From positions 1 through 42,946 of the forward strand of contig CAJVYQ010000041.1 in the NCBI GenBank assembly GCA_913009825.1: a DNA stretch of 42,946 nucleotides. Direction: 5' to 3'. Under the pieces are notes generated by a model. The model saw only the letters and a list, made by a program, of their open reading frames with translations, was not told the DNA's origin and searched no databases. A program made the translations under genes and the position numbers. The DNA is from an uncultured Deferribacteres bacterium (GTDB lineage: Bacteria; Zhuqueibacterota; JdFR-76; DREG01). Below, piece after piece: positions 9,766 through 32,562 of this stretch. The stretch's first letter is position 1. Each line of letters opens with the position of its first letter.

Positions 9766-9788
9766 AATTCACACACTTCCCGCCAGAA

Positions 9789-9821: not shown

Positions 9822-9862
9822 GCACACACGTTGCAGCATCAACAAATCGCAAACGGTCCAAT

Positions 9863-12065: not shown

Positions 12066-12090
12066 GTCAACTCCACACAGTTATTTAAAA

Positions 12091-13330: not shown

Positions 13331-13333
13331 GTT

Positions 13334-14944: not shown

Positions 14945-15387
14945 ACTGATTTGCTTCCCAAAATTAATTTCTCTATTAATAATTCATTCCGGTTTTTTCC
15001 TGTTGTATATTTTATTGAATCCATAAAACTGTCCATCAAAAACAATCCCCTGCCGCTGCTTTGGAAAACATCCGGTTTTTTTGCCAATTGTTCTGCCAAA
15101 ACGAACCCCCTGCCGTCATCGAAAACCCTGACGATGAGTTTGTTCAACTGTTTTTCCAACCGGAAAGAGATCTCCGAAACGGGTTTGTCATTTTGCGCAT
15201 GTAAAAACACATTGGTTAAAGCTTCCATGATACACACTTCCACTTCAAATCCCGCTTTTTCATTTTCCGGCCAGTACAATTCCACAATATTCCTGGCAAT
15301 TTTGGCAAATTTGCGAATATCAACCGGGGATGGATAGAATGAGAACTCAATTTCAAAGTCACCATCTTTTTCTTGACCGGACAACAT
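14941..15387 (-). CDS. rsbW: HATPase anti-sigma factor / serine kinase (RsbW-like)
   Basis: 148 residues from ATG 15387, which begins 1 bp after the stop of the STAS gene; a longer frame to 15444 would overlap that gene by 56 bp and is less likely. The protein is a GHKL-type ATPase domain: N box MEALTNVFLHAQ, G1 VFDDGRGF, G2 SSGRGLFLMDSFMD. RsbW-type proteins phosphorylate their STAS partner and hold a sigma factor or another target when the STAS protein is phosphorylated. No alternative sigma gene lies in the window, so the target is unknown and may not be a sigma factor at all. Confidence 0.88.
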   Translation of the reverse strand: MLSGQEKDGDFEIEFSFYPSPVDIRKFAKIARNIVELYWPENEKAGFEVEVCIMEALTNVFLHAQNDKPVSEISFRLEKQLNKLIVRVFDDGRGFVLAEQLAKKPDVFQSSGRGLFLMDSFMDSIKYTTGKNRNELLIEKLILGSKSV

Positions 15388-15388
15388 T

Positions 15389-15694
15389 TCAGATAATGTC
15401 AAATATTTTGTTGAGTCTGGTAATAGAAAACATGGATGCCACATGCTCCGTCAATCCGGATATTCGAATTGTTCCTTTTGCTCTGCGCGCTTCCCTCAAA
15501 CTGTAAACCAGCGCACCCAGACCGGAACTGTCGATGAAGCGCACTTTTTGCAGATCCAGGAGGATTTTATTCTGCCCGTCACGGATCAATTTCAGCAATT
15601 CTTCGCGCAATTCCACTGCATTCTGAATATCGATCCTTTTGTCTTTGATCAGCAAAACGGTGCCGCCATTTTTCCCTACTAATTGAATATTCAT
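15389..15694 (-). CDS. rsbV: STAS anti-anti-sigma factor (RsbV-like)
   Basis: 101 residues, a complete single STAS domain, with the phosphorylation site FIDSSGLGALV; Ser56 after Asp55 matches the Ser phosphorylated in SpoIIAA/RsbV. It is predicted to bind the HATPase protein encoded next (1 bp away) when unphosphorylated, and to be reset by the RsbU-like phosphatase. The ATG overlaps the preceding degenerate receiver gene by 4 bp. Confidence 0.92.
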   Translation of the reverse strand: MNIQLVGKNGGTVLLIKDKRIDIQNAVELREELLKLIRDGQNKILLDLQKVRFIDSSGLGALVYSLREARRAKGTIRISGLTEHVASMFSITRLNKIFDII

Positions 15695-16125
15695 GCGAAT
15701 ACCCTTTGATTAATTGGATAGAATAACGATCGACGATGGTTGTATCTTTCCCGGTAGCGACTCACCAGGGCGGCGTTTATCACTTCTTTCAGATAGTACC
15801 GGTCTTCCGGCCAGATGGCAAAATAGGCAATCCCCTGACTCCGTACCCGGCGCTCCAATTTTTGCGACGGTTGATTTGCGATAACGATAACACGAATATT
15901 TTCATCCGTCTTTCTGATCTGCCGGATCAATTGCAGCTCGGCAGTGGAATTGCTGTTTTGCAGCCCGGTCACCGCCACATCTAACCGGTACTTTTCGAAG
16001 ACCGATAAAAAGGAGCGGCTGTCCCTGAATATTTCCACATCAAACAATCTTGAATTGACCATTTCACGAATGGCACCGGCGATCTTTTCAGAATCCGAAA
16101 TTATTGCAACTGTCTGTCTCAGCAT
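15691..16125 (-). CDS. Degenerate receiver-like protein heading the operon
   Basis: 144 residues with the alternating beta-alpha pattern of a receiver (TVAIISDSEK, LDVAVTGLQNS, IRVIVIANQPS, GIAYFAIWPED). Of the phosphorylation residues only D11 is left: the acceptor Asp falls at G54, the Thr/Ser position is Ala, and the conserved Lys is Trp (FAIWPE). A basic C-terminal tail (about 120-144) has no recognisable domain. It is preceded by AGAAGGAAAT and is the first gene after the operon promoter; its stop overlaps the STAS gene by 4 bp. Probably a phosphorylation-independent partner of the STAS/HATPase pair. It could also be an unrelated Rossmann-like fold. Confidence 0.72.
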   Translation of the reverse strand: MLRQTVAIISDSEKIAGAIREMVNSRLFDVEIFRDSRSFLSVFEKYRLDVAVTGLQNSNSTAELQLIRQIRKTDENIRVIVIANQPSQKLERRVRSQGIAYFAIWPEDRYYLKEVINAALVSRYRERYNHRRSLFYPINQRVFA

Positions 16126-16182
16126 ATTTCCTTCTCTGATGAATCATAACAAATACCTCTTCATAATTAATTTTCGCCATAT

Positions 16183-16211
16183 TTTATAAAAATCTTGATT
16201 GATTTTAACAA
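16183..16211 (-). promoter_or_regulatory. Sigma70-type promoter of the signalling/pseudopilus operon
   Basis: On the minus strand, TTGTTA (16211-16206), a 17-bp spacer and TATAAA (16188-16183). The start would lie near 16176, leaving about 50 nt of leader before ATG 16125. No comparable promoter was seen inside the operon, consistent with one long transcript. Confidence 0.55.
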
Positions 16212-16673
16212 GCACCCTTTTCTTTTTGCTGAAGTTGAGGAAATCGTTTTGTTCCGCTTTCTTTCTGACCGCCAAATACATGACTCTGGTTTTGGATATC
16301 AAAATTACAGATTTTTATAGAAGGGGTGGAAGGAAAAAGGAAATTAGTTTGAGCCCTCCCTTTTTCGGTCAGGCACTAACTATGAAAAGGGAAATCATTA
16401 ATTTGGAGTTAGATTAGTGAGGAGTAACAGGAGGATCGAAGAAGAATAGTATGAAAAGTTTTGTTAAGCTTTAAGCCTGGATTATTCATGAATTTTGTTG
16501 TAATAAACCTTAACTTATTCGTATATAACAAGTTAAGCTGATGTTGATAAAAAAACAAATTTCTAAACGCAGAATTCGCAAATAACGCAGAGAATAGCGA
16601 TTTTCCTTTTCCGGTAATTTTCGGTTGACAGCTATTTCTGATTAGAAAAAATAGCTAAGATTTTCTCCATGTA

Positions 16674-16737
16674 TCTCTGCGGCCTCTGCGTTGATGAAAA
16701 GCCTCTTTTAACGTAGAGGCGCAAAGGACGCAGAGGA
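16674..16737. repeat. CGCAGAG-type palindromic repeat, copy 1
   Basis: TCTCTGCGGCCTCTGCGTT at 16674-16692 pairs imperfectly with an arm at 16710-16737 (aacgtagaggcgcaaaggac then gcagagga). The same hairpin recurs at 28747-28820 and 42840-42914, and half-copies lie at 16565-16592 and 16888-16909. Confidence 0.75.
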
Positions 16738-16980
16738 TCACAGAAAAACGGTTATAATCAAATTTATTTCACCCGCCCACAATTTCAGCCGTGGACTACA
16801 AAAAAGGAAGTACCCTTACCGCTCCAACGGTTCTAAAAAAAAACACCCGCTTGTCCGCAAAACATGCAACAAAAAACCTGCAAAAAACCTCTGCGAGTCT
16901 CTGCGTTAATTATTTTCGTGAATAATTCAGGTAACAAAAAAGGGGGTAAAATAAGAAGGGGTCCAGCGAACTTTTTGCTC

Positions 16981-18315
16981 TTAGCCCTGTGGTTCACAAC
17001 CGGATAATTTCTTTGCCGTTTCCCGATCAATTTGCAGGATTTTTGCCGCCAGCGTATAGTCTCCGTTGCAGACTGCGAGAGTATGCAAAACAGCTTCTTT
17101 TTCGATTTGATGAAGCGGCTTCAGGTTTTGATTCACCGATTTGGTCAGATAGCCGGGCAAATCTTTTACGCCTATTTTCCGGTTGCTCTGTATTGCCAGC
17201 GCGCTCTGAAGCACATTCTGCAGCTCCCACACATTTTCCGGCCAATGGTAGCGTTGTAAAATCTGCAGCGCATTTTCATCAACGGAGATATCGTCTGCCT
17301 CCTGCTGAAAAAAATGCCGGATTAATAACGGAATATCATCCTTGCGGTCTTTCAGGGACGGAAGATCAATTTTGTGCGCATTCAACAGATCAAATAATTT
17401 TATGTTAAATTGATTTTCATCGATCATTTCCTGCAAATCGATTTTGCCGGTAATAATGAAACGGACATCAACCGGTATCGCTTTTTCAGCCCGGATAGGA
17501 AAAATTTCCCCGGTGAGCAGTATTTGCAATAGTATTTTTTGCGCTTTTTTAGACAGCGCAAAAATTTCCTGTAAAAAAACCGTGCCTTTGTTAGCGGTTC
17601 GAAACACACCTAATTTACTGTACCCTTTGTCCGGTCCGGTTGATTCTTCCCGTCCCAGCCATTCATCCAACAGCCGCTGCTCTTTCAACACGCTGCAATC
17701 GGACGGGACAAATGATGCGGAAGCGCGGGCACTGTTAAAATGGATGGTTTTAGCGATCAATTCCTTGCCGGTACCGGTCTCGCCGCAAATCCAGACAACT
17801 TCCCGGTTTTGCGAAGCCGCTTCAATTTCCCGTTTTACCGTCATCATGGCCGGCGAATTACCGACAATATTTTCGAAATTGTACTTCTGGCGTAAAATAC
17901 GTTTCAATTGGCGGTTCTCCCGGCGCAACTTTTTGGTTTCGAACAGCCGTTTCAGTAAATTTTCCAATTCTTCGAATTGAATCGGCTTGGTGATATAATC
18001 GTAGGCGCCTTCTTTCATTGCATTCACTGCAGATTCAATACTGCCGTGACCGGTTATAAAAATCACGGCAATCTCCCGGTCGATCTTCTTCAACTGCCGC
18101 ATCAATTGTAAGCCGTCCAAATGCGGCATGATAAAATCGATCAGGGCGACGTCCACGTCCTGTTGCCGCACCAGTCCCAGAGCCTGCAAACCATCCGCTG
18201 CCGTAAAAGTACGGTATCCGGAGCCGGAAATAATTTCGGACAGAAGATCGCGGAAATCTTCCTCATCATCCACGATGAGAATACGTCCCGTTTCATCTGG
18301 TTCTTTAATTTTCAT
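16981..18315 (-). CDS. Degenerate NtrC-family (sigma54 activator-like) response regulator
   Basis: 444 residues: receiver, AAA+ domain, Fis-type helix-turn-helix. The receiver is intact (D16/D17, phospho-acceptor D60 in ALIDFIMP, Lys110). The AAA+ domain keeps Walker A (GETGTGKE, 178-185) but has lost what is needed to remodel sigma54 polymerase. GAFTGA is replaced by STGPDK (225-230), Walker B GTLFLDEI by GTVFLQEI (Asp to Gln249), and the arginine-finger segment FRxDLxYRLN by FNIKLFDLLN (303-312). The sensor-II GNVREL reads ENVWEL. The C-terminal helix-turn-helix (EKEAVLHTLAVCNGDYTLAA, about 405-440) is shortened. It probably binds DNA or partners in a phosphorylation-dependent way without activating sigma54. 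It stands alone, separated by repeat-rich gaps on both sides. Confidence 0.85.
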   Translation of the reverse strand: MKIKEPDETGRILIVDDEEDFRDLLSEIISGSGYRTFTAADGLQALGLVRQQDVDVALIDFIMPHLDGLQLMRQLKKIDREIAVIFITGHGSIESAVNAMKEGAYDYITKPIQFEELENLLKRLFETKKLRRENRQLKRILRQKYNFENIVGNSPAMMTVKREIEAASQNREVVWICGETGTGKELIAKTIHFNSARASASFVPSDCSVLKEQRLLDEWLGREESTGPDKGYSKLGVFRTANKGTVFLQEIFALSKKAQKILLQILLTGEIFPIRAEKAIPVDVRFIITGKIDLQEMIDENQFNIKLFDLLNAHKIDLPSLKDRKDDIPLLIRHFFQQEADDISVDENALQILQRYHWPENVWELQNVLQSALAIQSNRKIGVKDLPGYLTKSVNQNLKPLHQIEKEAVLHTLAVCNGDYTLAAKILQIDRETAKKLSGCEPQG

Positions 18316-18779
18316 CCCGTTAAACCCTGAACCATAAATTTTTTGCCGGAGAACTTAGTAGTTAAATAGTATTGTAATTTCCCTGTAAATACAAGAAGAT
18401 TTTTTGTACTGCCAAAGCAAAATATAAATATTCATTGCATCAAATTTCCGTGAAACAAATCGCGAGTTTCAGTGATTATTCATATTCAATTATCGTAACT
18501 ATTAGGACCGGCAAAGAGAACATCCCCTCCGTCGATGTTGTTGATTTGAGGAGGTGAGAATTTATTTTAATTCACAATTAGGATAATTAGTGTCTTAACG
18601 AAAAGTGGAAAACATGCATCTTGCTTGTTTTATAAACTGTTTAGTTTCCTGCTTTTCAATAAGATTATAATTCAAACAAGATGTTTGATATACAATTTAG
18701 ATCCTTTTCGTTCAAGCACTAATTATCAATTGTTAATGATTTTTTATGGGAATTTTCCTTAAGTCAATAGTATTCTCCC
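18316..18779. other. 464-bp intergenic region with a long palindrome
   Basis: No gene seen. The promoter of the NtrC-like gene should lie at its low-coordinate end. The rest is dominated by a roughly 150-bp imperfect palindrome (see the repeat at 18575-18735). A short CCTCC/GGAGG inverted pair occurs around 18525-18555. Confidence 0.6.
18575..18735. repeat. MITE-like imperfect palindrome
   Basis: Outer arms at 18583-18605 and 18704-18726 match as inverted repeats at 20 of 23 positions (ATAATTAGTG.. against ..CACTAATTAT; CGAAAAG against CTTTTCG). Inner arms AAACATGCATCTTGCTTGTTT and AAACAAGATGTTT continue the pairing, as does CAATT outside. There is no open reading frame. Size, AT content and terminal inverted repeats fit a miniature inverted-repeat element, but no target-site duplication was identified. 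It could alternatively be a very long terminator hairpin after the CHAT gene. Confidence 0.6.
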
Positions 18780-21700
18780 TTACTCCCCTCCGGCACCGCG
18801 CCAGAAAAACGCACTCCACAAAGATGCTTTTTTGTGTCTTCTGCGTAACAGATTGCGTGCATTATGGAAAGCAATGAACGGTTGGTTTCTGTGCAATTGG
18901 GACAAAAAAATCGATAGAAATTCTTTTTTAATGGCTGACGGCACCGGCCAGCGCAGCCCGGCGTAATTCGGGATTCCCCCGTTGCGCCATGCCGTTTGCC
19001 GCACACTTAAAACCGGCAACCGGCCGGTCAGCGTATCTTCCGGGAAAAGAGCGAAGACGAATGCGGCGCGACAGCGCAGAGAAAACAGATCCCGCAGATA
19101 GAAAAACCCGTCGTTATCATCGGGATTGGCAGAAACAGGACCGGCCGGATTCGAACCATCTGGAGATGGTGCTGAAAAGGGAATGTACGAATTGAGAACC
19201 GGCTGCCCGGCAGAAACAACCGGACGGTTGAGAATGAAAAAATTGGTTGATTGGATCCGTTGACGAAATTGCTTTTCCGTGATGGAACCCGAATTAACCT
19301 TCTCAAACACCAACCGGGGAAAATCTTTTTCCAGGTGCATAAAAAATTGTTGTCCGATCCACATTCCCTTTTTTACGGCAAAGCGCTTTACCCGCCGGGA
19401 CAAGCCCAAATCATTTAAAGAGGAAGAATAGCCGATTAGGTGCGCTGCCGCTGAAGGCTGTTTGCCAAACGGAAGGATTTCGAACGGAAGATTAACCAGC
19501 GGTGCGGCGGGAATCACAACCCACTCTTTCTTTTGCTGCAACACCGGGAAAAAGGGCATCAGTAAAATTTTTCCAAGTGAGTCTCCCTGCGCCGATGAAA
19601 CAGAATCCAGCCTTACAGCACGCATGAAACGGGCGGCCTGTTTTTTCAATTTTGTATTTGCCATTTGCGTTTTGAACGCGAAAAGAGAATCGGAGGTTAG
19701 ACACCATGAAAATAAAAAATCCTGCGTTGGAAAAAAAATTAACACGGCCAGGTCTGCCGACAAACCTTCTTTTGCTTCCTGCAAAGAGAAATCAAACGGT
19801 CTGAAAAGCGCCAACCGTTCCGGATCACTTTTTTTCAATCCGTCAATCAGATCCTGAAGCTGCTGTTTTGCGTAGGTCAGGCTGTCCAGAACATCGTAAA
19901 ACAGACGGTACCCGCCGCGCCGGCTTCTTTTAATTTCCAACAGCCGGTTGTTCAACCGGTTAACTTCTTTCAGTTGCGTCAGGTAATTTTTTATTCCTCC
20001 ATTCTGATTCTCACTAACTTGCCGTAATGATACCCGGTGAAGCATCGCCAATCTGAGTAGTCCCTGGTACTCTTCAAAACATTTCAAGGCTGCAATATTG
20101 TCGCCGTTTTCAAAGTAATTTTTGATGAGAGATGTATACAGATAGTTCATTTCTTTCGAGGCAGAAAGATCAAAAACAGTATCCGGTTTTGAAATTTTTT
20201 CCTGTCGCAAAATTCTCCGCGCCCGTTGAAAATAGTCCATTTTCACCGAATCCGGGGACGCAATGCGCAGGTCCCGTATTTGCCCTAATGAAGTGAGAAT
20301 TTGCCATTGCAGATTACGAAAGCCGTTCGCCCCGGCTAAGGAATTGGCTTGTCGAAAATAGTTTTCCGCTTCGGGCAATAAACCAACGTTGCAATTCAGT
20401 TCGCCCAGATAATTAAGGCCTATTGCCTGCTGCTTTTGCAGCGAATTACGCCGTGCAAGATCTACCGCCTGCTCAAATTCATCTACCATCGCGGCCACTT
20501 CCTGCCCATGAAGAGCAAACAAAGGCAGAGATGACTTTTGTTGGGATACCGGCTCTCTTTTCATTTTAAACGTAAATGCCAGAAAAGAAAGCGCTGCCCG
20601 CTGCAGAGTAAGCTCCGTTCGTTCCCGGATAAACGAATAGGGATAAGCCTGCAGCTTAGTCAGCGTTTCATCGATCCATTGAATAACAAGGTTCACATCG
20701 ATGCGCACATCTTTGTATTGGAGCTGTCCGCCCTGGGAATATTGCGAAAAGGTGATTACCATCCGGCAGATATTCAACAAATTGGTCACCTCTCCGGCCA
20801 AAAAGTTGTATTTGCTACAACGTTTGTAGGAAATGGAAAACCATCTCCATGCGTTGGTCAAATTACCCAGGGTCAGGTGCATCATGCCGATGTTGTTGAC
20901 CATGATTGCCTGCCCCAGCGGATCACCTTCCTTGCGTAAAACAGCTAATTTATCTTTTAGCAACTGCAGTGCCTGCCGGTAATTCTTCCGCTGTGCTTCA
21001 TTTTCCGCAAGAAGTGTGTAAATTAACGCACGCTCATCATTCACGGAAAAACCGTAAAGTTCCCGGGTAGTGCTGGGACCCAGGTTGCCGAAGCTCCAGA
21101 GAGGTATGGAATATCCCAAAAATTCCAGGCGCACAGAAGATGACGGCCGGTAGCGTTTTTTTAGTTTTTTATCCTGTAAAATTTCCAGCGCCCGCAAACA
21201 ATATTGCCGCACTTGCTTTTCATTCTTAAGCAGCAGATAGTTGTAAGCAATGTTGCGATATGTTTCCAGCACAGCCCGTTTGTTCTTCTGTTTTTGGTCC
21301 GCTGCCAATGTTGTGTGGTACTTTTCGATGGATTTTTTGAAGTCGCCGGAAGATTGGTAAATTAGCGCCAGCAGTTTTTCAATTTTTTGCTTTTGTTGCA
21401 AATCTGCCGGACCGGAGTATAAAACATCAGCCCGGTTCAATGCGGAAATGGCGGTTTGCCACTCTTTTACGCTGATGGCAGTGTGTCCCAGCCGGAAAAA
21501 GAAGGCAGCCTCTTGGCTAACACCGGCAAAAGTGGCAGCCAATTTCTGCTTGCGCAAGTAATAATCATACGCTTTTTCATGCCCGAAATCGCCCATATCA
21601 TAATAAATATCAGCCAGTTTAAGATAGAGACCGGCTTCCTGTTTTGGGTTTGTTTTCTCATCATTCAATGAAACAGCCAGGTCCAACAGGCGGATAGCCT

Positions 21701-24275
21701 TTTCGTACCAATTTTGCAGTTCGGCCGCTTTACGCAGCGTAATCGCGCGATACAGCCAGATGACCGGGCCAAAAATTTGTCTTGCCGCCCGGATTAACAG
21801 GCTTCTTTTCTGTTCCAATTCCTGTTGTTGAAAAATTTCAAGTTTCACATAATTGTCACTCAGAGCTATGTAAGCTGGGATCAGGCGAAAATCCCGGTTT
21901 AACGCCTGTTCCAGATAATCATTGGCCAGCGTCAATCCCTTGCGGTCATCTTGATATTGAAGAGAGTAAAGCAGTCCCAAAGCATAAAGGGCGCTTTGCT
22001 CCCCGGGCTTCTTTTTCAGGCGATTGCGGAATTCTCTTTCCAGCGAGGGGAAAAGTTGTAATTCCCGGGCGCAGGTTATCAATCCCTGTAACGCTTCAAT
22101 TCGGTTCGGTTTTTCCGACAATAACTTTTGATATTTTTCGTAAGCAGCGGCGGTCTGTCCGTTTCTCCGCATTCGTTCGGCTATATCAAACTGCAACTGC
22201 CGGATTTGTTCACGAAAAAAGGTGTTTTCAAAAACATTCAGATCGGTGCGATTCAAAATCTTTCTGCAAATTTGAATTGCCTTCCGGTTCTGCCTGTTTT
22301 CCGTGTAAATTTCACTCATCAAAATACCGGCATTAAGGTTGGCTGTTTTTTGCCGGGGGAATTTTTGCAGCACAGTCTGCAGCTCATTCCGAGCAGTTCG
22401 GGAATCTCCGTTTCTACGAAATAACTTTCCCCTGACAATGTGCAATCCGGCGACAAGTTGGGGAAACTCCCGGTATTTTTCCATGGCATCTTGCAGAACT
22501 TCCATTTCATTTTCGGCGTCCTTCTTTTTTAGAATAGAAATGATCCGTGCGCAGGCCCGCTGCCGCCAGAGATCACTGCCGGCGGTTTTTAAAATATGCA
22601 GATAATTTTTTAATGCCCCTGCACTATTTCCAAGCCGACAGAAAATATCCGCCTGCAGGAATAAATTTTTTATAAATGATTCCCCTTCTTTCGGCCCGGA
22701 ATCCAGCGATCCCTGAAGCAGACTCAGTGCCCGCTCCCGTTCGCCGTTCTGCCGCGCCAACTCCGCTTCGAACCGCGCAATTCCCCGTTGCACCGGTACA
22801 TTGCCTGAAAATCGTTGTCGCAACGAATCCGGAGCCCGACTCCACCGCGGCCGCGGCAAACCGCGCGCCTGCCACAAGGCTAATTTTATCCTGACAAACA
22901 ACGGTTCGTTCCGGCCGACCTCCCGCAGCATTCGTTGATACAACCGGATCGCCTTCCCTTTTTCTCCCGCCTGAATTTGTTCTTCCGCAACAACCAAACC
23001 CGCCAAAACACGCCAGGGATTTTCATCGGGAAAGCGCTGACGAACTGTTTGAAATGCCAAAAGCCGGTTCGTATGGAACGTACCCAGGGCAATGTTTAAG
23101 GGCAGAGCGGACAGACTATCGTCATGTTCAAGCTGATCGGGCAACAGCAGAGAAAAAGAGGAATCTGCCCATTCATATTGCTTCCGGGCGGAGGCAAACA
23201 CGGGAATGACGCCGGTGTGCGGTACCGCGCAAATGTTAAAATGACCCGATTCCCGCAGGGCAAAAAACAGGCGATCCTGAGAAATTTCGGGATAGAGAAC
23301 TTCCCGGTGTGCCGGAAAAAGAGAGACCAAGCGGGAGACCTGAATTCTCGTCTTCACAGATTCCGTACCGTTCGCATCGCCGGATGAATCCGCGGCAGGC
23401 AAAATTAGAGAAAGACGAATCAGTGCCGGGTTATCGCTCAAATCGATGCAGTCATCGGCGTTGGTATCGCTTTCGTAGCGTAGAAAAAACAGCGTGGAAT
23501 CGTTTTTCCCCCATACCGGAAAAGATTCATTTACATCCCCGGGCAGAAGAAGTATGGCATTTGTATCTTCCATATTCATTTCGGAGAACGATTGGTTCGT
23601 AAAAAAAATTTTCAAAAAAATATGCTGCCGGGTATATTTGCCGATTTTATGAATTTTTGTGTATGCCAGCCACTTTCCGCCGGAAGACCAGGCAGGAGAA
23701 GTTCCACCGGTAAACGTGAAAGGAATCACATTATTTGAAGCGGGATCAAGCAGCCAGATATTACGTTCGCCGGTTAATCTGGTGGAAGTGAAAGCAATCC
23801 ATTTGCCATCCGGAGAGCAGTCCGGTTTACCATCATAACCCAGATAGTTGTCGATTTGCCGGATTTGAATTTTACTGCCCGGCATTTTGGCCGGTTTACA
23901 GCGCAGTTGCCACAGATCCCCTTTCGCATCGCTTCGCTTGGAAATAAAATAGATAGTGCGGTTATCGGCAGCCCAGCAGGGCGAATAATCATCCGCTTTG
24001 TGAAACGTAAGCTGGAAAGCCGGTCCGCCGTGAACGGATTTAAGCCAGATATCCCTGTTGCCGGAACGGCGGGAAGTGAACGCCAGCCAGCGGCCGTCCG
24101 GAGAAACAGCCGGTTCCGTATCATCATCCGGGAAGGTTGTAACATGTTGAATTTGGGAAAATTGTTTGTAAAAATAAGGCCGGTAAATTTGTGCGTACTG
24201 AGCCCGGGCAGGGTTCAGAAAAAAAAGAGCGGCGCAAACGCCCCAAAAAACAGCGTTTCTGTTCCGCCCGATCAT
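18780..24275 (-). CDS. Secreted beta-propeller-TPR-CHAT protein with degenerate CHAT domain
   Basis: 1831 residues. A signal peptide (FWGVCAALFFLNPARA, cut after ARA near residue 25) sends it to the periplasm or surface. Residues about 40-330 are TolB/PD40-type propeller blades (AVSPDGRWLAFTSRRSGNRD, CSPDGKWIAFTSTR, SSGGKWLAYTK). About 420-1420 is a long TPR array. About 1480-1831 is a CHAT (caspase HetF-associated) domain, recognisable from AVLIFFPT, the core VVIPAAPLVNLPFEILPFG (1586 on) and the end GLRWPVPSAIKKEFLSIFLS...ASLWSAFFWRG. The catalytic parts are not kept: the usual 'H-x-A-T-H-G' reads FFILNRPVV (about 1679-1687) and the usual 'LSACxTG' reads FALFPEDT, with Pro near 1745 for Cys. 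Protease activity is therefore doubtful. The start overlaps the lipoprotein stop by 4 bp (ATGA), so the two probably work together at the envelope. Confidence 0.82.
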   Translation of the reverse strand: MIGRNRNAVFWGVCAALFFLNPARAQYAQIYRPYFYKQFSQIQHVTTFPDDDTEPAVSPDGRWLAFTSRRSGNRDIWLKSVHGGPAFQLTFHKADDYSPCWAADNRTIYFISKRSDAKGDLWQLRCKPAKMPGSKIQIRQIDNYLGYDGKPDCSPDGKWIAFTSTRLTGERNIWLLDPASNNVIPFTFTGGTSPAWSSGGKWLAYTKIHKIGKYTRQHIFLKIFFTNQSFSEMNMEDTNAILLLPGDVNESFPVWGKNDSTLFFLRYESDTNADDCIDLSDNPALIRLSLILPAADSSGDANGTESVKTRIQVSRLVSLFPAHREVLYPEISQDRLFFALRESGHFNICAVPHTGVIPVFASARKQYEWADSSFSLLLPDQLEHDDSLSALPLNIALGTFHTNRLLAFQTVRQRFPDENPWRVLAGLVVAEEQIQAGEKGKAIRLYQRMLREVGRNEPLFVRIKLALWQARGLPRPRWSRAPDSLRQRFSGNVPVQRGIARFEAELARQNGERERALSLLQGSLDSGPKEGESFIKNLFLQADIFCRLGNSAGALKNYLHILKTAGSDLWRQRACARIISILKKKDAENEMEVLQDAMEKYREFPQLVAGLHIVRGKLFRRNGDSRTARNELQTVLQKFPRQKTANLNAGILMSEIYTENRQNRKAIQICRKILNRTDLNVFENTFFREQIRQLQFDIAERMRRNGQTAAAYEKYQKLLSEKPNRIEALQGLITCARELQLFPSLEREFRNRLKKKPGEQSALYALGLLYSLQYQDDRKGLTLANDYLEQALNRDFRLIPAYIALSDNYVKLEIFQQQELEQKRSLLIRAARQIFGPVIWLYRAITLRKAAELQNWYEKAIRLLDLAVSLNDEKTNPKQEAGLYLKLADIYYDMGDFGHEKAYDYYLRKQKLAATFAGVSQEAAFFFRLGHTAISVKEWQTAISALNRADVLYSGPADLQQKQKIEKLLALIYQSSGDFKKSIEKYHTTLAADQKQKNKRAVLETYRNIAYNYLLLKNEKQVRQYCLRALEILQDKKLKKRYRPSSSVRLEFLGYSIPLWSFGNLGPSTTRELYGFSVNDERALIYTLLAENEAQRKNYRQALQLLKDKLAVLRKEGDPLGQAIMVNNIGMMHLTLGNLTNAWRWFSISYKRCSKYNFLAGEVTNLLNICRMVITFSQYSQGGQLQYKDVRIDVNLVIQWIDETLTKLQAYPYSFIRERTELTLQRAALSFLAFTFKMKREPVSQQKSSLPLFALHGQEVAAMVDEFEQAVDLARRNSLQKQQAIGLNYLGELNCNVGLLPEAENYFRQANSLAGANGFRNLQWQILTSLGQIRDLRIASPDSVKMDYFQRARRILRQEKISKPDTVFDLSASKEMNYLYTSLIKNYFENGDNIAALKCFEEYQGLLRLAMLHRVSLRQVSENQNGGIKNYLTQLKEVNRLNNRLLEIKRSRRGGYRLFYDVLDSLTYAKQQLQDLIDGLKKSDPERLALFRPFDFSLQEAKEGLSADLAVLIFFPTQDFLFSWCLTSDSLFAFKTQMANTKLKKQAARFMRAVRLDSVSSAQGDSLGKILLMPFFPVLQQKKEWVVIPAAPLVNLPFEILPFGKQPSAAAHLIGYSSSLNDLGLSRRVKRFAVKKGMWIGQQFFMHLEKDFPRLVFEKVNSGSITEKQFRQRIQSTNFFILNRPVVSAGQPVLNSYIPFSAPSPDGSNPAGPVSANPDDNDGFFYLRDLFSLRCRAAFVFALFPEDTLTGRLPVLSVRQTAWRNGGIPNYAGLRWPVPSAIKKEFLSIFLSQLHRNQPFIAFHNARNLLRRRHKKASLWSAFFWRGAGGE

Positions 24276-24841
24276 TTTTTTCTCACCCAGCTTCCATCAT
24301 CGAGTTGAATCCATGTTTTTTTTTCGGATTGCTCGATATTGATTTTTTCAACAATTGATTCAATCTGTTTTCGCCTGGCCGGGGAAGCCGGCGTATTCAT
24401 AGCAATAATCCTTGTCCGGATAACTTTCCGGTCGTTATTTTCCTGTTCCACAATTCGCCGGACTGCGCTCTCCGGTTCTTTTGTCCGGGAAATGCTGCCC
24501 ATATCGACAATTTCCAAATAACCCTTGTTGTTCTCACCGATGATCCCCAACTGTTTGAGGTTCACTATTTTATCCCGGTTCTGTTGCCGGTTTTTTATCG
24601 CCTGCAGCACAGAATTCTTATTTTCCGCCGGAGATGGGCTGTGGCTGAACTGTGAAAACGGATACGAAATCAGGCTGTGGGATTCCATCTCCAGGCGTTT
24701 ATAAGAACCCAAAACCTGCTTTTCCAGATCGGTTAACTCCCCGGTGATGTTTACACGGGGAATGCGGATTGTGCAGTTTGTCATGAAAAACAGGAGAAAG
24801 ATGGTTAAAAGATTTCCCCCCGCATTACTTGTTTTCAGCAT
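24272..24841 (-). CDS. YdbL/DUF1318-like lipoprotein
   Basis: 189 residues. A lipoprotein signal (LLTIFLLFFMTNC, Cys23) has an unusual Asn before the Cys. The C-terminal third matches what I remember of the YdbL/DUF1318 family: AVRRIVEQENNDRKVI, spacer, then a Trp-rich end WIQLDDGSWVRKK resembling the 'G..W.R' ending of E. coli YdbL. In E. coli YdbL acts with the AsmA-like YdbH and the lipoprotein YnbE in a cell-envelope bridge for phospholipid transport. An AsmA-like gene lies 5 kb upstream (29314-32562), but on a separate unit. The start overlaps the phosphatase gene by 17 bp and the stop overlaps the CHAT gene by 4 bp, so the three form one transcript. Confidence 0.68.
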   Translation of the reverse strand: MLKTSNAGGNLLTIFLLFFMTNCTIRIPRVNITGELTDLEKQVLGSYKRLEMESHSLISYPFSQFSHSPSPAENKNSVLQAIKNRQQNRDKIVNLKQLGIIGENNKGYLEIVDMGSISRTKEPESAVRRIVEQENNDRKVIRTRIIAMNTPASPARRKQIESIVEKINIEQSEKKTWIQLDDGSWVRKK

Positions 24842-25673
24842 ACAGATTATACTCCCGGAGAATTTGCAACACTATTTTATTCCAACCGGCCGGTCCGGTA
24901 TCTCCGGCTAATTTGGGCGACAATTGCCGTGTGATTCCGACATTGTATCGATTCTTTGCATTTTTTACCAGACACGGAATTTGCACATTTTGCAGCATGG
25001 CCAGATCATTCAACGAATCGCCGATCCCTACTGAAATCCAGTCACCAGGTTCATTGCCGCGATAAAAATCGATCAACGATCTCACAGCCAGCCCTTTATC
25101 GTGGGGGCCGCTGAGATGAAAAAATCGCCCCCCTTTAGTGATTTTCAGATTTCTTTCCGCCGCCGCTTTTTCCAGTTCCGGCAGCCTTTTTTCACTGTCT
25201 TCATCCGGGAACCGGAACGGCTCGCTGTAGTTACGCCGCCGGGACAACTCTGCCTGATAGAAACTGAGTCCGGTTAATTCCTGTATTTCCCCGGTACTCA
25301 GATCGCCAAAACCCTGCAGCCGAATATGCAGGTTTTTTTTGCAGTCAGTTAAAAAAGAGCATAGTTTTATATACGGAACACCAAACTGTTTCACCTCGTA
25401 ACCGCAGTCTGTTCTGTTAAAAATTGCGTTTTCGAAATATCCCAGTGGCGAATAGATAGCGGCACCGTTCTCCACAATAAAAGGATGGTCTACACCAAGT
25501 TCTCCCCGTATAGCGATCGATTCATCTTTCGTTTTTGAAGTGCAAAAAATCAACGGGACACTCAAAAAAAACAATTGCTGCAACGCCTCTTCTGCCTCCT
25601 GCCAGGAGTAGGTGTAATGATCCAGAAGCGTTCCGTCCAGATCGGTAAAAATGAGAAGGTTTGGTTTGTTCAT
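24825..25673 (-). CDS. mpgP: Mannosyl/glucosyl-3-phosphoglycerate phosphatase (MpgP-type HAD)
   Basis: 282 residues of the HAD-IIB family. Motif I is FTDLDGTLLD (about 9-18), motif II CTSKTKDES (about 44-52), then KGLAV (Lys) and motif III GIGDSLNDLAML. The cap-domain sequence and VENGAAIYSPLGYF fit mannosyl-3-phosphoglycerate phosphatase, which removes phosphate in the last step of mannosyl- or glucosylglycerate synthesis. The synthase-like gene 365 bp upstream suggests glucosylglycerate here, and this enzyme class accepts both. It overlaps the start of the downstream lipoprotein gene by 17 bp, linking solute synthesis and an envelope module on one transcript. Confidence 0.88.
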   Translation of the reverse strand: MNKPNLLIFTDLDGTLLDHYTYSWQEAEEALQQLFFLSVPLIFCTSKTKDESIAIRGELGVDHPFIVENGAAIYSPLGYFENAIFNRTDCGYEVKQFGVPYIKLCSFLTDCKKNLHIRLQGFGDLSTGEIQELTGLSFYQAELSRRRNYSEPFRFPDEDSEKRLPELEKAAAERNLKITKGGRFFHLSGPHDKGLAVRSLIDFYRGNEPGDWISVGIGDSLNDLAMLQNVQIPCLVKNAKNRYNVGITRQLSPKLAGDTGPAGWNKIVLQILREYNLYAENK

Positions 25674-26038
25674 GTTTGGTTTTGCATCTGTCTTAAAAAT
25701 AATTTACTGTAACTATTCAGCCTGGTTTCCTTTTGCCACAAAGATAGTACGTCACGAAGGTTTTAAAAAAACTATTTTTATAAAATATTGAATTGTGGTA
25801 ACTGCTCAGGCTAATGAGTTCATCGTTCCCCCGAAGGGATGCCTTCGGCAAAAGTTCCCGGTTCGAACCCTTTTGTGCTTCGTGTATATCTACGCCGTTA
25901 ACCTTTGAACCATGAACCAATGAACCGTGAACCTGATTCGTTACAAACACCTTATTTTTTTAACAAACCAACATAACTTTTTTGTATTTAAGAACCGTCA
26001 GACCAACGAACTTTCAGCCAAATATTTCCTCTCCTCCC
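25674..26038. other. 365-bp intergenic region with several repeat types
   Basis: No gene. It contains GTAACTATTCAG at 25709-25720 and a relative GTAACTGCTCAG at 25798-25809, TTTTGCCACAAAGA at 25731-25744 (near-copy at 40324-40337), and a 7-bp hairpin CCGAAGG/CCTTCGG at 25831-25848. Four TGAACC units lie at 25906-25933. It may hold the promoter of the phosphatase-lipoprotein-CHAT unit. Confidence 0.6.
25906..25933. repeat. Tandem TGAACC repeat
   Basis: TGAACC occurs at 25906, 25913, 25921 and 25928, with period 7-8-7. Confidence 0.7.
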
Positions 26039-27247
26039 TCAGGAGTTATCCTCCTCCACCGCTTGCAGCAACAGTTGAAAAAAATTCGGCACGGCCGCCG
26101 CCACACGGTTCCAATTGGGAGTTAGCGGCAGGTCCAACGGGCTTTTCAGTACTTCCTGACCGGCAATCATAATCGATCTGGCAAAGGTTTCCACCGCCTG
26201 TCCCTCCTGGTGACGATCGAAATACAGATTGTTGATGGCAGCGTCGTGGTCATAGTGGCTGATAGTATCCTGACCCACTCTCAGATAGGCAATCTGCAAA
26301 GTACGCAGCAGCCCTTCCGAGAGGATAACGCCTTCCTGGCCCAAATTTCTGAAGATCGATTTAGCAATATCGATGGACATTTTCATCAATCCCTTTTGAG
26401 GATCATTCGGAGACAACACCTGGTGCTTATGGTCATAATTATCACAAATCTCGGACTGACAAATTCTGTTGATCGAAGTTGTCCGATACACTTCAGAAAG
26501 AGCGCCCACTTCCAGTCCCCAATCTCCCGGAATACGGATAATTCTGGCCAGATCAACCGCCAATGAAAATTCACCCGCCAAAGGATAGCGAAAACTGTCC
26601 AGATAATTCAAAAGCGGTACATTTCCCAATATTTTTTTAAGCGCCCTGATCATGGGAGAAACAAACAAACGGGTTACCCGGCCATGCATTCTGTCTGTCA
26701 CACGACTGTAAAACCCCTTGCAATATTCATAGTCGAGGGTAGTACTCATCACCGGAAAACAAAGTCTTGCCAGCAACTCCCGGTCGTAGGTTAAGATATC
26801 ACAATCGTGCAGCGCTACGACCCGGCTCTTATTTTCCGCAATGATATAACCAAGCGCCATCCACACCGACCGGCCTTTTCCATCGGAGCCAACATTCAGT
26901 TCGTGCTCGCTCAGCAAGTCGTACAAGAACGAAATTCGCGGGCCGGTGTTCCAGACAATTTTCACTTCCTGGGGCAAAACGGAAAAGAATCTTTTCACCT
27001 TGTCGAATTGTTCCGCATCTGTCTGTCCCATTGTTACCACAATCTGGTTGATGTACGGAACTGTTTTAATCACTGCCAAAATCTTTGGCAGCGCCGTACC
27101 CTCCAATTCTGCATAAATCGAGGGTAAAACAACGGAAAGGGGACGAATGAATTTGTATGCCTCTAACTTCCTTTCGATTTCCGAGATGTCTGATTTTCCC
27201 AATTTATGCAAAGTGGTTATGACACCGGTCTGATAAAAATCACCCAT
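26039..27247 (-). CDS. gpgS: Glucosyl-3-phosphoglycerate synthase (GT81)
   Basis: 402 residues, a GT-A glycosyltransferase. Markers are PLSVVLPSIYAELEG, the metal-binding DxD in ALHDCDILTYD (about 147-157), GKGRSVWMALGY and the acceptor-side LAGEFSLAVDLAR and DWGLEVGALSEVYR. This set is typical of GpgS, which transfers glucose from a nucleotide sugar to 3-phosphoglycerate. Mannosyl-3-phosphoglycerate synthase is the alternative but is less similar. The ribosome binding site GAGGGTGAT precedes ATG 27247. It lies 38 bp after the glycerate kinase gene and 365 bp before the phosphatase gene, giving a pathway for glucosylglycerate, a compatible solute made under salt stress or nitrogen limitation. 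Confidence 0.9.
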   Translation of the reverse strand: MGDFYQTGVITTLHKLGKSDISEIERKLEAYKFIRPLSVVLPSIYAELEGTALPKILAVIKTVPYINQIVVTMGQTDAEQFDKVKRFFSVLPQEVKIVWNTGPRISFLYDLLSEHELNVGSDGKGRSVWMALGYIIAENKSRVVALHDCDILTYDRELLARLCFPVMSTTLDYEYCKGFYSRVTDRMHGRVTRLFVSPMIRALKKILGNVPLLNYLDSFRYPLAGEFSLAVDLARIIRIPGDWGLEVGALSEVYRTTSINRICQSEICDNYDHKHQVLSPNDPQKGLMKMSIDIAKSIFRNLGQEGVILSEGLLRTLQIAYLRVGQDTISHYDHDAAINNLYFDRHQEGQAVETFARSIMIAGQEVLKSPLDLPLTPNWNRVAAAVPNFFQLLLQAVEEDNS

Positions 27248-27285
27248 ATCACCCTCGCTTTTATCTTATGAACTGCAATTTATTT

Positions 27286-28617
27286 TCAACGGATCAATAG
27301 TACCTGAATATCGATTACATTGGTTCCCGATGCACCGGGAGAAAATAGATCGTCTATCTTTTTGAAAAAGGAGTAAGAATCATTATTTTTAAGAAATCCT
27401 TTCCACTGCAAACCCAAAGAAGCGGCACGGTTCAGCGAATCGGAAAAGCCGAAAGCCCCTGCTGCATCCGTCGGTCCATCGGTGCCGTCCGTACCAACGC
27501 TAAAAAAGGCGGCATCGCCCAAACCGGCCAGGTCTTTTAAAACAGCCAAAACCATTTCGGTGTTTCTTCCCCCTTTTCCGTCACCGGTCACTGTCACCGT
27601 TGTTTCCCCCCCGGCAATGATGCAGGCCGGCGGCGGCAAAGGCTGACCGCTCAAGCGGATCTCTCTGGCGATAGCGCCGTAAAACCGGGCAATTTCTCCG
27701 GCCTCTCCCTGAACCGAACTGGACAAAACAAGCGGTTCCCAGCCGTTCCGGTGTGCCAGTTCTTTTACCGCAAGCAATGCTTTTTGATTGTTGGCAACAA
27801 TGATATTCTTAACCTTGCTAAAGAGCGGATCGCCCGGCTTGGGCGTTTCCGCTGCCGGATTTTTCCGTTGATTCAGGAACCACTGCCGCAAGGCCGGAGA
27901 CAATTCCGGCCAAATTTTATAATCCTTCAAAATTTCTTCCGCCCCGGCAAAATCGGAGGGATCGGGTGTTGTTGCGCCGGAAGCGATAGATGCCGGTTTA
28001 TCCCCGATAACATCGGATATGATGAACGAAACCACTCGTGCCGGCAGTGCTAATCGTGCAAGCCGGCCGCCCTTTACAGCGGAGAGATGTTTTCTAACCA
28101 CATTCATTTTTTCGATGGGAACCCCTTTGCGCAACAACAGATTGGTGATGTCCTGCTTATCTTTCAGGGAAATCCCGGCGCGGGGGTGGACCAGCAGCGC
28201 GGAGCCGCCGCCGGAAATAAGCGCGATAACCAGATCCTTCCCGCCGGTTTTTTCCAGCAGTTCGATTATTTGGCGCGTAGCGCGGACACCGTTTTCATCA
28301 GGTACCGGATGGGCGGCTTCGAAAATTTTTATTTTTTTCAGGGGAACCGCGTGTTCATATTTTGTCACCACCACCCCGTCATGGATCAGATCACCCAAGA
28401 TATTTTCCGTCACTTCTGCCATGGCTGCGGAGGCTTTGCCGAAACCGATCACCCAAATTTTACCAATATCGTGCAGAGAGAGCCATTCGCTTCCCAACTG
28501 AATTTTGTCGCCTTTCACCCGTAAATTCATTTTCAGAGATACTTCCGGAGATGCTTCTTCGATGGCAACATAATAAGCATCCGTGAAAAACTTCTTTGCT
28601 TCTGTGCGAAAATCCAT
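27286..28617 (-). CDS. Glycerate kinase (MOFRL family)
   Basis: 443 residues from ATG 28617, which has AAGGGAGAG upstream; a longer frame to 28635 is less likely. The family's markers are VIGFGKASAAMAE, ISGGGSALLVHP, the long MOFRL C-terminal domain with GGRNTEMVLAVL and the end SVGTDGTDGPTDAAGAFG. This type of enzyme phosphorylates D-glycerate, usually to 2-phosphoglycerate. Next to gpgS it could supply the phosphoglycerate acceptor or recycle glycerate from breakdown of glucosylglycerate. Symbols differ between species (gckA, ttuD), so none is given. Confidence 0.92.
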   Translation of the reverse strand: MDFRTEAKKFFTDAYYVAIEEASPEVSLKMNLRVKGDKIQLGSEWLSLHDIGKIWVIGFGKASAAMAEVTENILGDLIHDGVVVTKYEHAVPLKKIKIFEAAHPVPDENGVRATRQIIELLEKTGGKDLVIALISGGGSALLVHPRAGISLKDKQDITNLLLRKGVPIEKMNVVRKHLSAVKGGRLARLALPARVVSFIISDVIGDKPASIASGATTPDPSDFAGAEEILKDYKIWPELSPALRQWFLNQRKNPAAETPKPGDPLFSKVKNIIVANNQKALLAVKELAHRNGWEPLVLSSSVQGEAGEIARFYGAIAREIRLSGQPLPPPACIIAGGETTVTVTGDGKGGRNTEMVLAVLKDLAGLGDAAFFSVGTDGTDGPTDAAGAFGFSDSLNRAASLGLQWKGFLKNNDSYSFFKKIDDLFSPGASGTNVIDIQVLLIR

Positions 28618-28721
28618 TTTTCTCTCCCTTCTCAAGTCTTTTTAAAATAGTCAAAAACAAAATAAAATTCAACAATACCGGAATTGTTTTCTACATAGAT
28701 GCGTCTGTGTGGCCATAAGTT

Positions 28722-29313: not shown

Positions 29314-32300
29314 TTACGAACCCGTTTCTGTTTTTATAATATTCAGAATAAATTTAATGGGGACCCGGGATATTGATATTTTCCCTCCCTGAATACGAAC
29401 CGGCAAATACCAGGGCTGGGCAAATGATACGGAAGGATAAAGATTACCGTGCTGAACCCGAAAGGAGATAACATTGGGTTTGTAGCCCAGTTTGATCATC
29501 TTCTTTACAGATCTGATTCCCGGGTCTTTACCGTACGGATCGATACTGTTCAATAGATTTTCTGTGGCACGGGCGCCAATTTCGGTCACTTCCAGGCCTC
29601 CGGACAGGACAATCTTTTTCGTCGTTTCCAGACCCCGGCCAAGCAAATTAAAAGAAACCCCTATGCGTGCCTCTTCCTGTTCTTTGGCAACGCCGGGTAA
29701 AATGGACGAATTCACCCGGGATAACTGCCCGGCGAGCCGGTACGAAATATCTTGCCAGGCACCGCTGTTTAAATTGATGAGTGCATTCATAACCAGATTG
29801 CCGTCGTACAAATCCATTGATAAATTGGGAATCAGAATTGAACTCTTTTGTGAATCCATGAAAAGTTCAATGTTGTCCACTTTATAATCTTTGATCACAA
29901 GACTATCCGCTGTAATTCGGAAAAAAGAGTTCTGCTGCTGAAAAAAGTCGGGATACACAGTAAACAGGTCAAACCGGTGCTCCGCTGTTTTCGAAGTAGG
30001 CTGAGAAACAAAATAACCGCTCTCCGGATCATATATCTGATCGAAAGGGAGCCTGCCATTCAAATTGTACAATGCTATTTTATCTTCATTCCGGATGCTC
30101 AGGCTGTCCGCATCGAGCCATCCATGCAGTTCCAGCACAGCAGGATTGACAGCCCGGGAAAACACGGCAAATTTTGCTTCCCAGTCACCGTAAAAAGTAG
30201 TGTTCAAAATTATTTGAACCGCAGAATCCGGGTTTGACCGGACGGTACCGCTGAGATAGTAAAACGGCGCGCCATTGAAATAGTCCGTCATACCGGTACA
30301 ATGGATGCGCAAATTTAACTGCGGCTGTATCACATCGAGAGACTGGAGCGATAACCGGCGCCAATTTTCAAAGACAATTGTGGAGAAAAATTCTGTTCCG
30401 GTAAAAACAGGGGTAGTCTCCAGAAGTTGGAATCCGGAAATCTTTCCTTCCAGATCCAACAGCAACCCGGATAAATCCCCGGAAAAAACGCCGTACGTAT
30501 CCAGTGTGTCCAAATGCAAATACCAGTAGGGATTATCGAACAGTTCGTTCTTCAGCCGCAAATCCCCGATGATCTGTAACTGCATCCGGTGCTTTTCATC
30601 GAACCAGGTATTCGCCTCCGCAGTAACGGTCACCCGGCCGGACCAAAGTGCGGATGTCATGTCGTCGCGCAGGTACGCCGGAAGAAACTCTTCTATCAGA
30701 GGCAAGTCGATTTGCAATTTTTGCAGGTAAATATCGGACTCACCGGACTTGGTGATAAAGTTGCCTTCAAATGCCCCGGTGATCAGATCATTCAAAGAAA
30801 ATGTTCTCGATTTGAAACGGACTTCTGCAAAGCCGGCCGATGCGGTTACATCGCCTGACAGTTTCAGAGAAACATCGGGCAGCAGCTCCAGTCCTTCTGT
30901 GGTGTCGAATTCCACAGAAAGGTCTTTGGTTTTAAATTCCGTGTGCAAAAGCGCCCGGTTCTCAAAATTGCTTTGCAGTTGAGCTAAAAAATCCGCCGAT
31001 CCGGTTACGGAATTGGGCGCTATTTTTTCCAGGTTGATCTCCCGAATATCGACACGTGCAAACAGCTTCAGAGAATCGAAATTCATCTCTTGCAGCGAAT
31101 GAACGTTTTTACTCTTCAAATTGAACTGCGACGTCAAAACCGCGCCGAAAATATCGTCGGCATCCAGCCGGAGCGCCAGACTGTCCGGAACAAAATTTCT
31201 TGTCAATGCGGCTTGCAACGAGAGATGCCAATTTTTTAAATCTATTTTTCCCAAACCATTATCCAACAACCGGATTGCCTTTAATGCCAGCGCGGCGGAA
31301 ATATCTCCCTTCTGAAACTCGTTACCGACAAAAACACCGGCATTGCGGATCCAGCCGTCGAAATTAGAGAGTTGAATCTGACGATTGCGAAAATCAAAAC
31401 CCTGAAATCTATTATTCCAATTATACTCAATTCGCCACTTGTCGTTTTTCTTTTCCGCAGCTATCCGAATAGAATCCAGTGAAATCTGACCCCGAAACGT
31501 TGTATTTTCCGGTAGAAATTCCCGGGGAATTTGGGCTTGTAATAAATCGCTAAAAATTGCTCCCAGGTTCAAAGAGAGAGAGTCCGAAAAGAATTTAGCC
31601 TTTATATAAGGAATACGAACCAGTCCCACCGAGAATTTTGTGAAAAACCAGTTTTTAATATGCAGGCTCAATTGGGCCTGCAAATCGGTCAGGTTGGGAT
31701 GGAATAAGCCGGAAAAATTGCAGTCAACGGGCGGCAGCGGCAGCTGAACAGCGGTTTTTTCATCATTAAACCAGTCGATTTCAACCCTGTTTTGCTGCAA
31801 TTGTAAACTGACTGCGAACGGAATTTTTGTGGCCGGCTGCTCCGGCAACCTGGCGCTTTTCAACACAAAGTTACCGGAGGATGATAGCTGTATCCGCTTT
31901 ACCCGCAATGAATCCAATTGCAGATTGTGCGGCTGATAAGTCATCCGCAATGCTCCGTGATCGATCCCGGCGATTATCCGATAGGTAAAATTCCGCAGCG
32001 AAAAGACGGAATCCCGGCCGGAAAATTGAAACCGGCGCAAATCAATTAAAAAATTTGACAGGAAAAAAGAGAAGTTCCCGCTCTCCGAACCGCCCCTCCA
32101 TTCCATTTCAGCCCGGCGCAGCTCTAATGTTTGAACCGCCAGCAGCCAATGGTTCAAAAAAGAAGATTGGGATGTCGATGAATCACCGGCGAAAAAATTC
32201 TTAAAATCTGCATCAATCAGATTTATTTTCGGATGATCGATCACAATTTTGGAAATGACAATTTTTTTGTGCAGCAGGGCTTTCAACCGGTAGCGCAGTT

Positions 32301-32562
32301 CAACCCGGTCAACGGTAAGAAAATCTTCCTTATTGGCGGGAAACGGCCGGGAGATTGTTACATTTTCCAACCGGAATCCTTTTAGCAGATGGAACGATGC
32401 CGTGTGGATTTGCACAGTTCTGCCAAATTGTTGGGAAAGAAAAGCCGTTGCCAATTGTTTAAATCGCGCCGGCGGATATTGATGAATGAAATAAAAATAA
32501 ACCGCGGCAATAAAAAAGAAGGATACAAGCAAAAGAATAAACACCGTCCGGAGAAACCGCAT
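29314..32562 (-). CDS. AsmA/YdbH-like envelope protein
   Basis: 1082 residues. One N-terminal membrane helix (VFILLLVSFFFIAAVYFYF, about 7-25) is followed by an AsmA N-terminal domain (FGRTVQIHTASFHLLKGFRL, VELRYRLKALLHKKIVISKI) and a very long, almost purely beta-rich periplasmic region, as in the bridge-forming AsmA/TamB/YdbH proteins that carry lipids between membranes. The C-terminal part (about 930-1070: SLDLYDGNL-like repeats, then DPYGKDPGIRSVKKMIKLGY and QHGNLYPSVSFAQPWYLPV) seems most like the AsmA/YdbH C-terminal region. A DUF1318/YdbL-like lipoprotein occurs at 24272-24841, which supports but does not prove a YdbH role. No other gene follows it closely. Confidence 0.7.
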   Translation of the reverse strand: MRFLRTVFILLLVSFFFIAAVYFYFIHQYPPARFKQLATAFLSQQFGRTVQIHTASFHLLKGFRLENVTISRPFPANKEDFLTVDRVELRYRLKALLHKKIVISKIVIDHPKINLIDADFKNFFAGDSSTSQSSFLNHWLLAVQTLELRRAEMEWRGGSESGNFSFFLSNFLIDLRRFQFSGRDSVFSLRNFTYRIIAGIDHGALRMTYQPHNLQLDSLRVKRIQLSSSGNFVLKSARLPEQPATKIPFAVSLQLQQNRVEIDWFNDEKTAVQLPLPPVDCNFSGLFHPNLTDLQAQLSLHIKNWFFTKFSVGLVRIPYIKAKFFSDSLSLNLGAIFSDLLQAQIPREFLPENTTFRGQISLDSIRIAAEKKNDKWRIEYNWNNRFQGFDFRNRQIQLSNFDGWIRNAGVFVGNEFQKGDISAALALKAIRLLDNGLGKIDLKNWHLSLQAALTRNFVPDSLALRLDADDIFGAVLTSQFNLKSKNVHSLQEMNFDSLKLFARVDIREINLEKIAPNSVTGSADFLAQLQSNFENRALLHTEFKTKDLSVEFDTTEGLELLPDVSLKLSGDVTASAGFAEVRFKSRTFSLNDLITGAFEGNFITKSGESDIYLQKLQIDLPLIEEFLPAYLRDDMTSALWSGRVTVTAEANTWFDEKHRMQLQIIGDLRLKNELFDNPYWYLHLDTLDTYGVFSGDLSGLLLDLEGKISGFQLLETTPVFTGTEFFSTIVFENWRRLSLQSLDVIQPQLNLRIHCTGMTDYFNGAPFYYLSGTVRSNPDSAVQIILNTTFYGDWEAKFAVFSRAVNPAVLELHGWLDADSLSIRNEDKIALYNLNGRLPFDQIYDPESGYFVSQPTSKTAEHRFDLFTVYPDFFQQQNSFFRITADSLVIKDYKVDNIELFMDSQKSSILIPNLSMDLYDGNLVMNALINLNSGAWQDISYRLAGQLSRVNSSILPGVAKEQEEARIGVSFNLLGRGLETTKKIVLSGGLEVTEIGARATENLLNSIDPYGKDPGIRSVKKMIKLGYKPNVISFRVQHGNLYPSVSFAQPWYLPVRIQGGKISISRVPIKFILNIIKTETGS

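Follow-up and report, generated by a model that had tools for sequence, protein, structure and literature searches.

The described proteins closest to the giant studied here are Csx29, the TPR-CHAT protease of type III-E CRISPR systems, and separase (peptidase C50), both of which carry a dead caspase-like domain beside an active one but are intracellular. The protease region of Csx29 comprises a pseudo-caspase and an active-caspase part and is regulated through the TPR domain; on sensing a ligand, this domain shifts the position of the CHAT dyad (PMC10028731). Csx29 has one CHAT region and is a partner protein of the RNA-guided Cas7-11 complex. Separase likewise places helical repeats ahead of a caspase-like protease domain. 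Conserved bacterial proteins with a caspase fold and without a His-Cys dyad are represented by the pseudo-orthocaspases (PMC6426788), but these are a p20-domain family and neither CHAT proteins nor propeller-TPR giants. For the neighbouring genes, the nearest parallel is the E. coli envelope pair YdbH-YnbE with ydbL in the same locus, where an AsmA-superfamily protein, an outer-membrane lipoprotein and a DUF1318 protein are encoded together (PMC8593681, PMC12977461).

The 42,946-nucleotide stretch of DNA that we analysed (the window) encodes an exported giant (Table 1) that is orthologous to the front two thirds of tandem-CHAT proteins of 2700-2880 residues, as mapped by BLAST, Pfam and HMMs. 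It is probably a non-catalytic remnant of an envelope protease resembling separase and Csx29, kept as a binding scaffold together with a DUF1318 lipoprotein. The account as a whole, i.e., a tandem-CHAT family with an ancestrally dead CHAT1, a deletion of CHAT2 in this lineage and a scaffold role with the lipoprotein, is the one towards which we lean. The initial annotation had described a signal peptide, a PD40 propeller and a TPR array ahead of a CHAT fold without its catalytic dyad; these observations hold throughout, and the interpretation attached to them is partly supported. Pfam recovers the propeller and the repeats, and the signal peptide was recognised by eye; at least two orthologues (L042, L146) have a lipobox at its site instead. 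Conservation of TPR1 peaks at residues 700-1170 (mean column identity 49%; alignment A3). The giant shares with Csx29 the placement of a CHAT fold behind a TPR array, but it is exported and has a propeller, its relatives contain two whole CHAT modules and the window copy only a dead one. The Pfam scan of window genes returned no cas gene that would point to a Cas7-11/Csx30 association. From separase it differs in being exported, in lacking the dyad and in having no securin or cohesin context.

Table 1 Features of the giant locus, in window positions
Feature	Position	Strand	Basis or remark
Exported propeller-TPR-pseudoCHAT giant	18780..24275	minus	1831 aa ORF, no internal stop
Sec signal peptide, residues 1-25, MIGRNRNAVFWGVCAALFFLNPARA, ends ARA	24201..24275	minus	By eye
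PD40 beta-propeller, ~residues 40-400	23076..24158	minus	Pfam PD40 E 1.5e-26, three stretches
TPR array 1 (TPR1), ~residues 420-1440	19956..23018	minus	Pfam TPR families
Pseudo-CHAT1, residues 1441-1831	18783..19955	minus	Terminus coincides with CHAT1 end of orthologues
Codon P1685, catalytic-His position	19221..19223	minus	hhalign against intact CHAT2
Codon E1746, catalytic-Cys position	19038..19040	minus	hhalign against intact CHAT2
Intergenic stretch at deletion site	18316..18779		tblastn and flanking synteny with L039
NtrC-type response regulator, conserved downstream flank	16981..18315	minus	Pfam; follows giant-aminotransferase in L039
DUF1318 (YdbL-like) lipoprotein, lipobox Cys23	24272..24841	minus	PF07027 E 2.5e-11
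Lipoprotein membrane-proximal segment, CSxxAPExxVTGEKTALENQVxGTYxxIExDxWxxASxR	24644..24775	minus	Out-conserves DUF1318 domain
AsmA-superfamily protein gene	29314..32562	minus	PF05170 E 1e-8

In Pfam, CHAT1 of the window protein is a sub-threshold match at residues 1721-1825 (E 0.0024, 17.8 bits; the cut-off of PF12770 is 24 bits). Alignment of the last ~390 residues, through a profile of the CHAT1 domains of 34 KSB1 orthologues, to the intact CHAT2 of the orthologues with hhalign reached 100% probability (E 5e-57, 361 columns, 18% identity) and placed P1685, in the motif FFILNRPVV, at the catalytic His and E1746, in FALFPEDT, at the catalytic Cys. The AlphaFold2 model of residues 1241-1831 (pLDDT 85.7, pTM 0.87) has Csx29/TPR-CHAT (Z ~25) and separase (Z 24.1 to 5fby, 294 residues) as its top structural matches, and also matches DdvA, a transmembrane anti-sigma factor, over the TPR-CHAT part (8rot, Z 18.6). 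The structure prediction and comparison proposed with the initial annotation thus returned the CHAT fold of PF12770. By the profile alignment, the His-Cys pair that characterises active CHAT proteases and active C50 separases is absent from the protein. A profile search against PDB sequences with alignment A1 was dominated by TPR/PPR repeats, so that it gave nothing informative on CHAT.

The dyad of CHAT1 is missing not only here but in 34 of 34 KSB1 copies. Neither site shows a residue pattern among these sequences; the His site has one residual His (L047), and the Cys site has no Cys. Cys is not conserved at ≥50% in any column of the 34 domains, and hence no alternative conserved nucleophile is seen in CHAT1. 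Nine copies inspected from the more distant Delongbacteria/UBP11 are dead as well. The simplest conclusion is that CHAT1 was already dead in a common ancestor, so that the dead domain is no recent oddity of the window gene. The absence of the dyad was correctly read at the outset, but its loss most simply predates this gene. What the window gene itself lost is a second module, TPR2-CHAT2, which normally bears the dyad within the same polypeptide.

With the single window protein as query no relative was found; with the TPR1 alignment as query, giant orthologues were recovered in 57 of 82 genomes of candidate division KSB1, mostly as a single copy per genome and broadly inherited within the division. 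Complete orthologues are mostly 2700-2880 residues long, with open frames about 1000 residues longer than that of the window, and are arranged as propeller-TPR1-CHAT1-TPR2-CHAT2. The window protein corresponds to the exported propeller-TPR1-CHAT1 front part and terminates in WRGAGGE, where the CHAT1 of orthologues ends in GFEGM. In full-length members, CHAT2 carries the motifs CHGxY and SACETGL; Pfam CHAT matches the L039 orthologue at 2e-80, and Pfam C50 also touches its CHAT2. The homologue search for copies with and without the dyad, likewise proposed with the initial annotation, thus yielded a CHAT1 that is dead in every copy examined and a CHAT2 that is usually intact, the latter at about 35 KSB1 loci and at seven loci in Delongbacteria/UBP11, where the same two-CHAT layout occurs with the CHAT2 dyad H/SGCDTGG. 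One Delongbacteria orthologue (L131) is broken into two ORFs (1918 and 523 residues) on a low-coverage contig, which may be a sequencing error. The two CHAT modules of full-length members lie ~600 residues of TPR apart, and a model of one of them (L052) renders TPR2 as a continuous superhelix (pLDDT 84.5, pTM 0.62), although its placement of the two CHATs is unreliable because the pTM is only 0.62. We considered whether a dead and a live CHAT in tandem reproduce exactly the layout of separase and dropped this idea, because the halves of Csx29 and separase share one protease region and the giants have two complete modules.

In L039, the giant is followed by genes for an aminotransferase, NtrC, a response regulator, a kinase and RsbU, and in the window the truncated giant is followed directly by NtrC, response regulator, kinase and RsbU. 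Flanking genes are conserved on both sides, and the deletion therefore took TPR2, CHAT2 and the aminotransferase gene; a single event would explain the difference between the two loci. Searches with the C-terminal halves of orthologues (tblastn) detected no TPR2 or CHAT2 remnant in the intergenic stretch or the downstream flank, and no close CHAT2 copy was found elsewhere in the genome, which is 96% complete. Two other CHAT proteins of this genome were rejected as a relocated TPR2-CHAT2: against the CHAT2 model they score 231 and ~264 bits, in two pieces, below the range of true dyad-bearing CHAT2 (mostly 500-590 bits), and are hence paralogues. One of them, on contig 14 (L160), has 834 residues, a signal peptide and an intact-looking dyad (CHGFF/LSACQS), so that a secreted CHAT protein, considered unusual in the initial annotation, is not unusual even within this genome. 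The other, on contig 67 (L159), has 1237 residues, an N-terminal hydrophobic segment and the motif LSGCDTGLG.

A dyad-bearing TPR2-CHAT2 is usual in the family, but it is missing or dead in several lineages besides that of the window. The protein of G007, from a different family, likewise ends at the CHAT1 boundary; six loci of the tree, and L158 besides, keep the CHAT2 region without its dyad; and in family f9 the locus L139 (5536-10910) has a 1646-residue open frame that matches neither CHAT model, having lost both domains, and keeps its DUF1318 and AsmA neighbours. On the TPR1 tree, catalytic CHAT2 was lost on at least four branches, and the propeller, TPR1 and the pairing with DUF1318 persisted through this repeated loss. 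In the nearest relative by TPR1, G003 (L038, ~9400-10126), CHAT1 is frameshifted and lacks a stretch around its His strand, and a stop follows early in TPR2, near a contig end; the frameshift may be real or a sequencing error.

The main competing explanation holds that the window gene is a decaying remnant under relaxed selection after deletion of the protease module, that it serves no function by itself and that it is bound to disappear, as it did in its family-mates. The window branch is the joint longest in the TPR1 tree, at 1.55 changes per site where the median is 0.24, and no match to the giant was found in G001 and G002, which belong to the same family; this combination fits relaxed constraint. 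Decay would also agree with the frameshift within CHAT1 of G003 and with the retention of conserved positions in TPR1a (0.48) and TPRmid (0.58), the lowest in the window copy. However, the 1831-codon frame is intact, 77% of conserved positions are retained in PD40, 69% in TPR1b and 66% in CHAT1, hydrophobic core columns are largely retained (77-94% per domain) and the 4-bp overlap with the lipoprotein gene is preserved. In addition, substitution ratios (Nei-Gojobori) computed for relatives, not for the window gene itself, indicate that dead domains are under purifying selection there: dN/dS of CHAT1 is 0.19-0.25 where synonymous changes are unsaturated (seven pairs), and a pair of other lineages without the CHAT2 dyad (L067/L153) shows 0.10-0.32 across domains. 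We regard decay as somewhat unlikely.

That the truncation is an assembly artefact is very unlikely. The genome is a metagenome-type draft of 123 contigs, but the junction lies inside a 43-kb contig with AsmA and DUF1318 genes upstream and downstream genes in the order of L039, the stop falls exactly at the domain end, and G007 ends at the same boundary in another family. Catalysis by CHAT1 via non-canonical residues found no support beyond the single copy retaining a His and is extremely unlikely given the patternless dyad sites and the lack of a conserved Cys in 34 sequences. Defence proteins are among the TPR-CHAT proteases whose function is known (PMC10028731, PMC9729208), and the family could be viewed as anti-phage or conflict effectors like Csx29 or the CHAT-gasdermin systems. 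This appears highly improbable for a giant that is exported, is inherited broadly in the phylum, mostly as one copy per genome, and has a conserved lipoprotein partner; apart from a generic TPR model, PADLOC returned for it a single match, short and weak, to Cas2b (E 0.0014).

The giant gene is coupled to the gene of a YdbL-like lipoprotein by a 4-bp overlap (24272-24275), as claimed at the outset. The suggestion that this is a new arrangement stands only in so far as the coupling is real: a gene for a lipoprotein with a DUF1318 domain lies directly upstream of the giant in most loci, and the window thus displays the usual arrangement of the family in KSB1. Among the 82 KSB1 genomes, 54 have both genes, 21 neither, three the giant only and four DUF1318 only. 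The seven mismatches include loci running off contigs (e.g., G031 and G011) and G001/G002, in which DUF1318 is part of a canonical locus of the ydbH-ynbE-ydbL type. Such canonical loci occur in giant-less genomes of the window's family at L163 (5972-9290) and L164 (1-2349); at L163, PF11739 and PF07027 matched and YnbE was recognised by eye, and PF11739 reaches E 1.2e-21 in G002. Three of four Delongbacteria/UBP11 genomes encode the same type of lipoprotein, away from the giant.

The membrane-proximal segment of the lipoprotein is more conserved than the rest (mean identity 0.76 versus 0.58 among partners of intact CHAT2), which hints at a specific interaction. The window lipoprotein has lost the Trp and the Arg of the segment. 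Of 28 partners of intact CHAT2, 26 have the Trp, versus three of 11 others (Fisher p 1e-4 on raw counts), but on the tree the loss of Trp and the loss of catalysis provide just two to four independent contrasts, too few for significance; Trp/Arg as a cleavage mark is purely hypothetical.

In other KSB1 genomes, an AsmA-superfamily gene is usually directly upstream of the lipoprotein gene, a linkage that does not extend to all families. In the window, three genes for glucosyl/mannosylglycerate synthesis (24825-28635, minus strand), encoding GpgS-like, MPGP-family phosphatase and glycerate 2-kinase proteins, separate the AsmA gene from DUF1318, which are adjacent in many other KSB1 genomes. The locus resembles YdbH-YnbE-YdbL in its DUF1318 protein (PF07027) and its AsmA-superfamily neighbour, but differs in that the DUF1318 protein is itself the lipoprotein and a giant CHAT protein is added. 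As the AsmA-like protein has no match to the YdbH model PF11739 in the window or in relatives, only to AsmA/DUF748 models, we treat the parallel as a lead and not as membership.

With our preferred reading of the window gene as a remnant scaffold goes a most likely mechanism for the full-length members. Their propeller, TPRs and pseudo-CHAT1 would fold, would dock in the periplasm or at the outer membrane with the DUF1318 lipoprotein, a contact that we infer from gene pairing and conservation, and would sense a ligand. The TPR array would relay this signal to CHAT2, as the TPR region of Csx29 does, and CHAT2 would by analogy cut an envelope substrate. In the window lineage, the sensing and docking part alone would be left; this protein cannot cleave by the CHAT dyad and would, together with the lipoprotein, serve for binding only, as a scaffold or a decoy. 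The scaffold proposed in the initial annotation is plausible, as is a regulatory role. A broader model, unlikely in its entirety, is that the envelope of KSB1 and Delongbacteria contains a system of two parts, a giant tandem pseudoCHAT-CHAT protease and the DUF1318 lipoprotein on or through which it acts, linked to an AsmA-type intermembrane bridge; several lineages including that of the window would have converted it into a non-catalytic receptor, and TGEKTALENQVxGTYxxIExDxWxxASxR would be the docking or cleavage site.

The family is exported, found across one phylum and shared with another, and a whole CHAT module has apparently been dead since before these groups split. Repeated loss of the active module, with the remainder kept alongside one lipoprotein, provides natural experiments on pseudoprotease function, and the family may point the way to regulated proteolysis at an envelope machine of the AsmA/DUF1318 kind. 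Beyond the deletion site, positions 10371-18315 of the window (minus strand) hold a cluster encoding NtrC, response regulators, an RsbU-type phosphatase, an anti-sigma kinase, an anti-anti-sigma factor, an HDOD protein and a histidine kinase. The NtrC, response regulator, kinase and RsbU genes recur in L039, again downstream of the giant.
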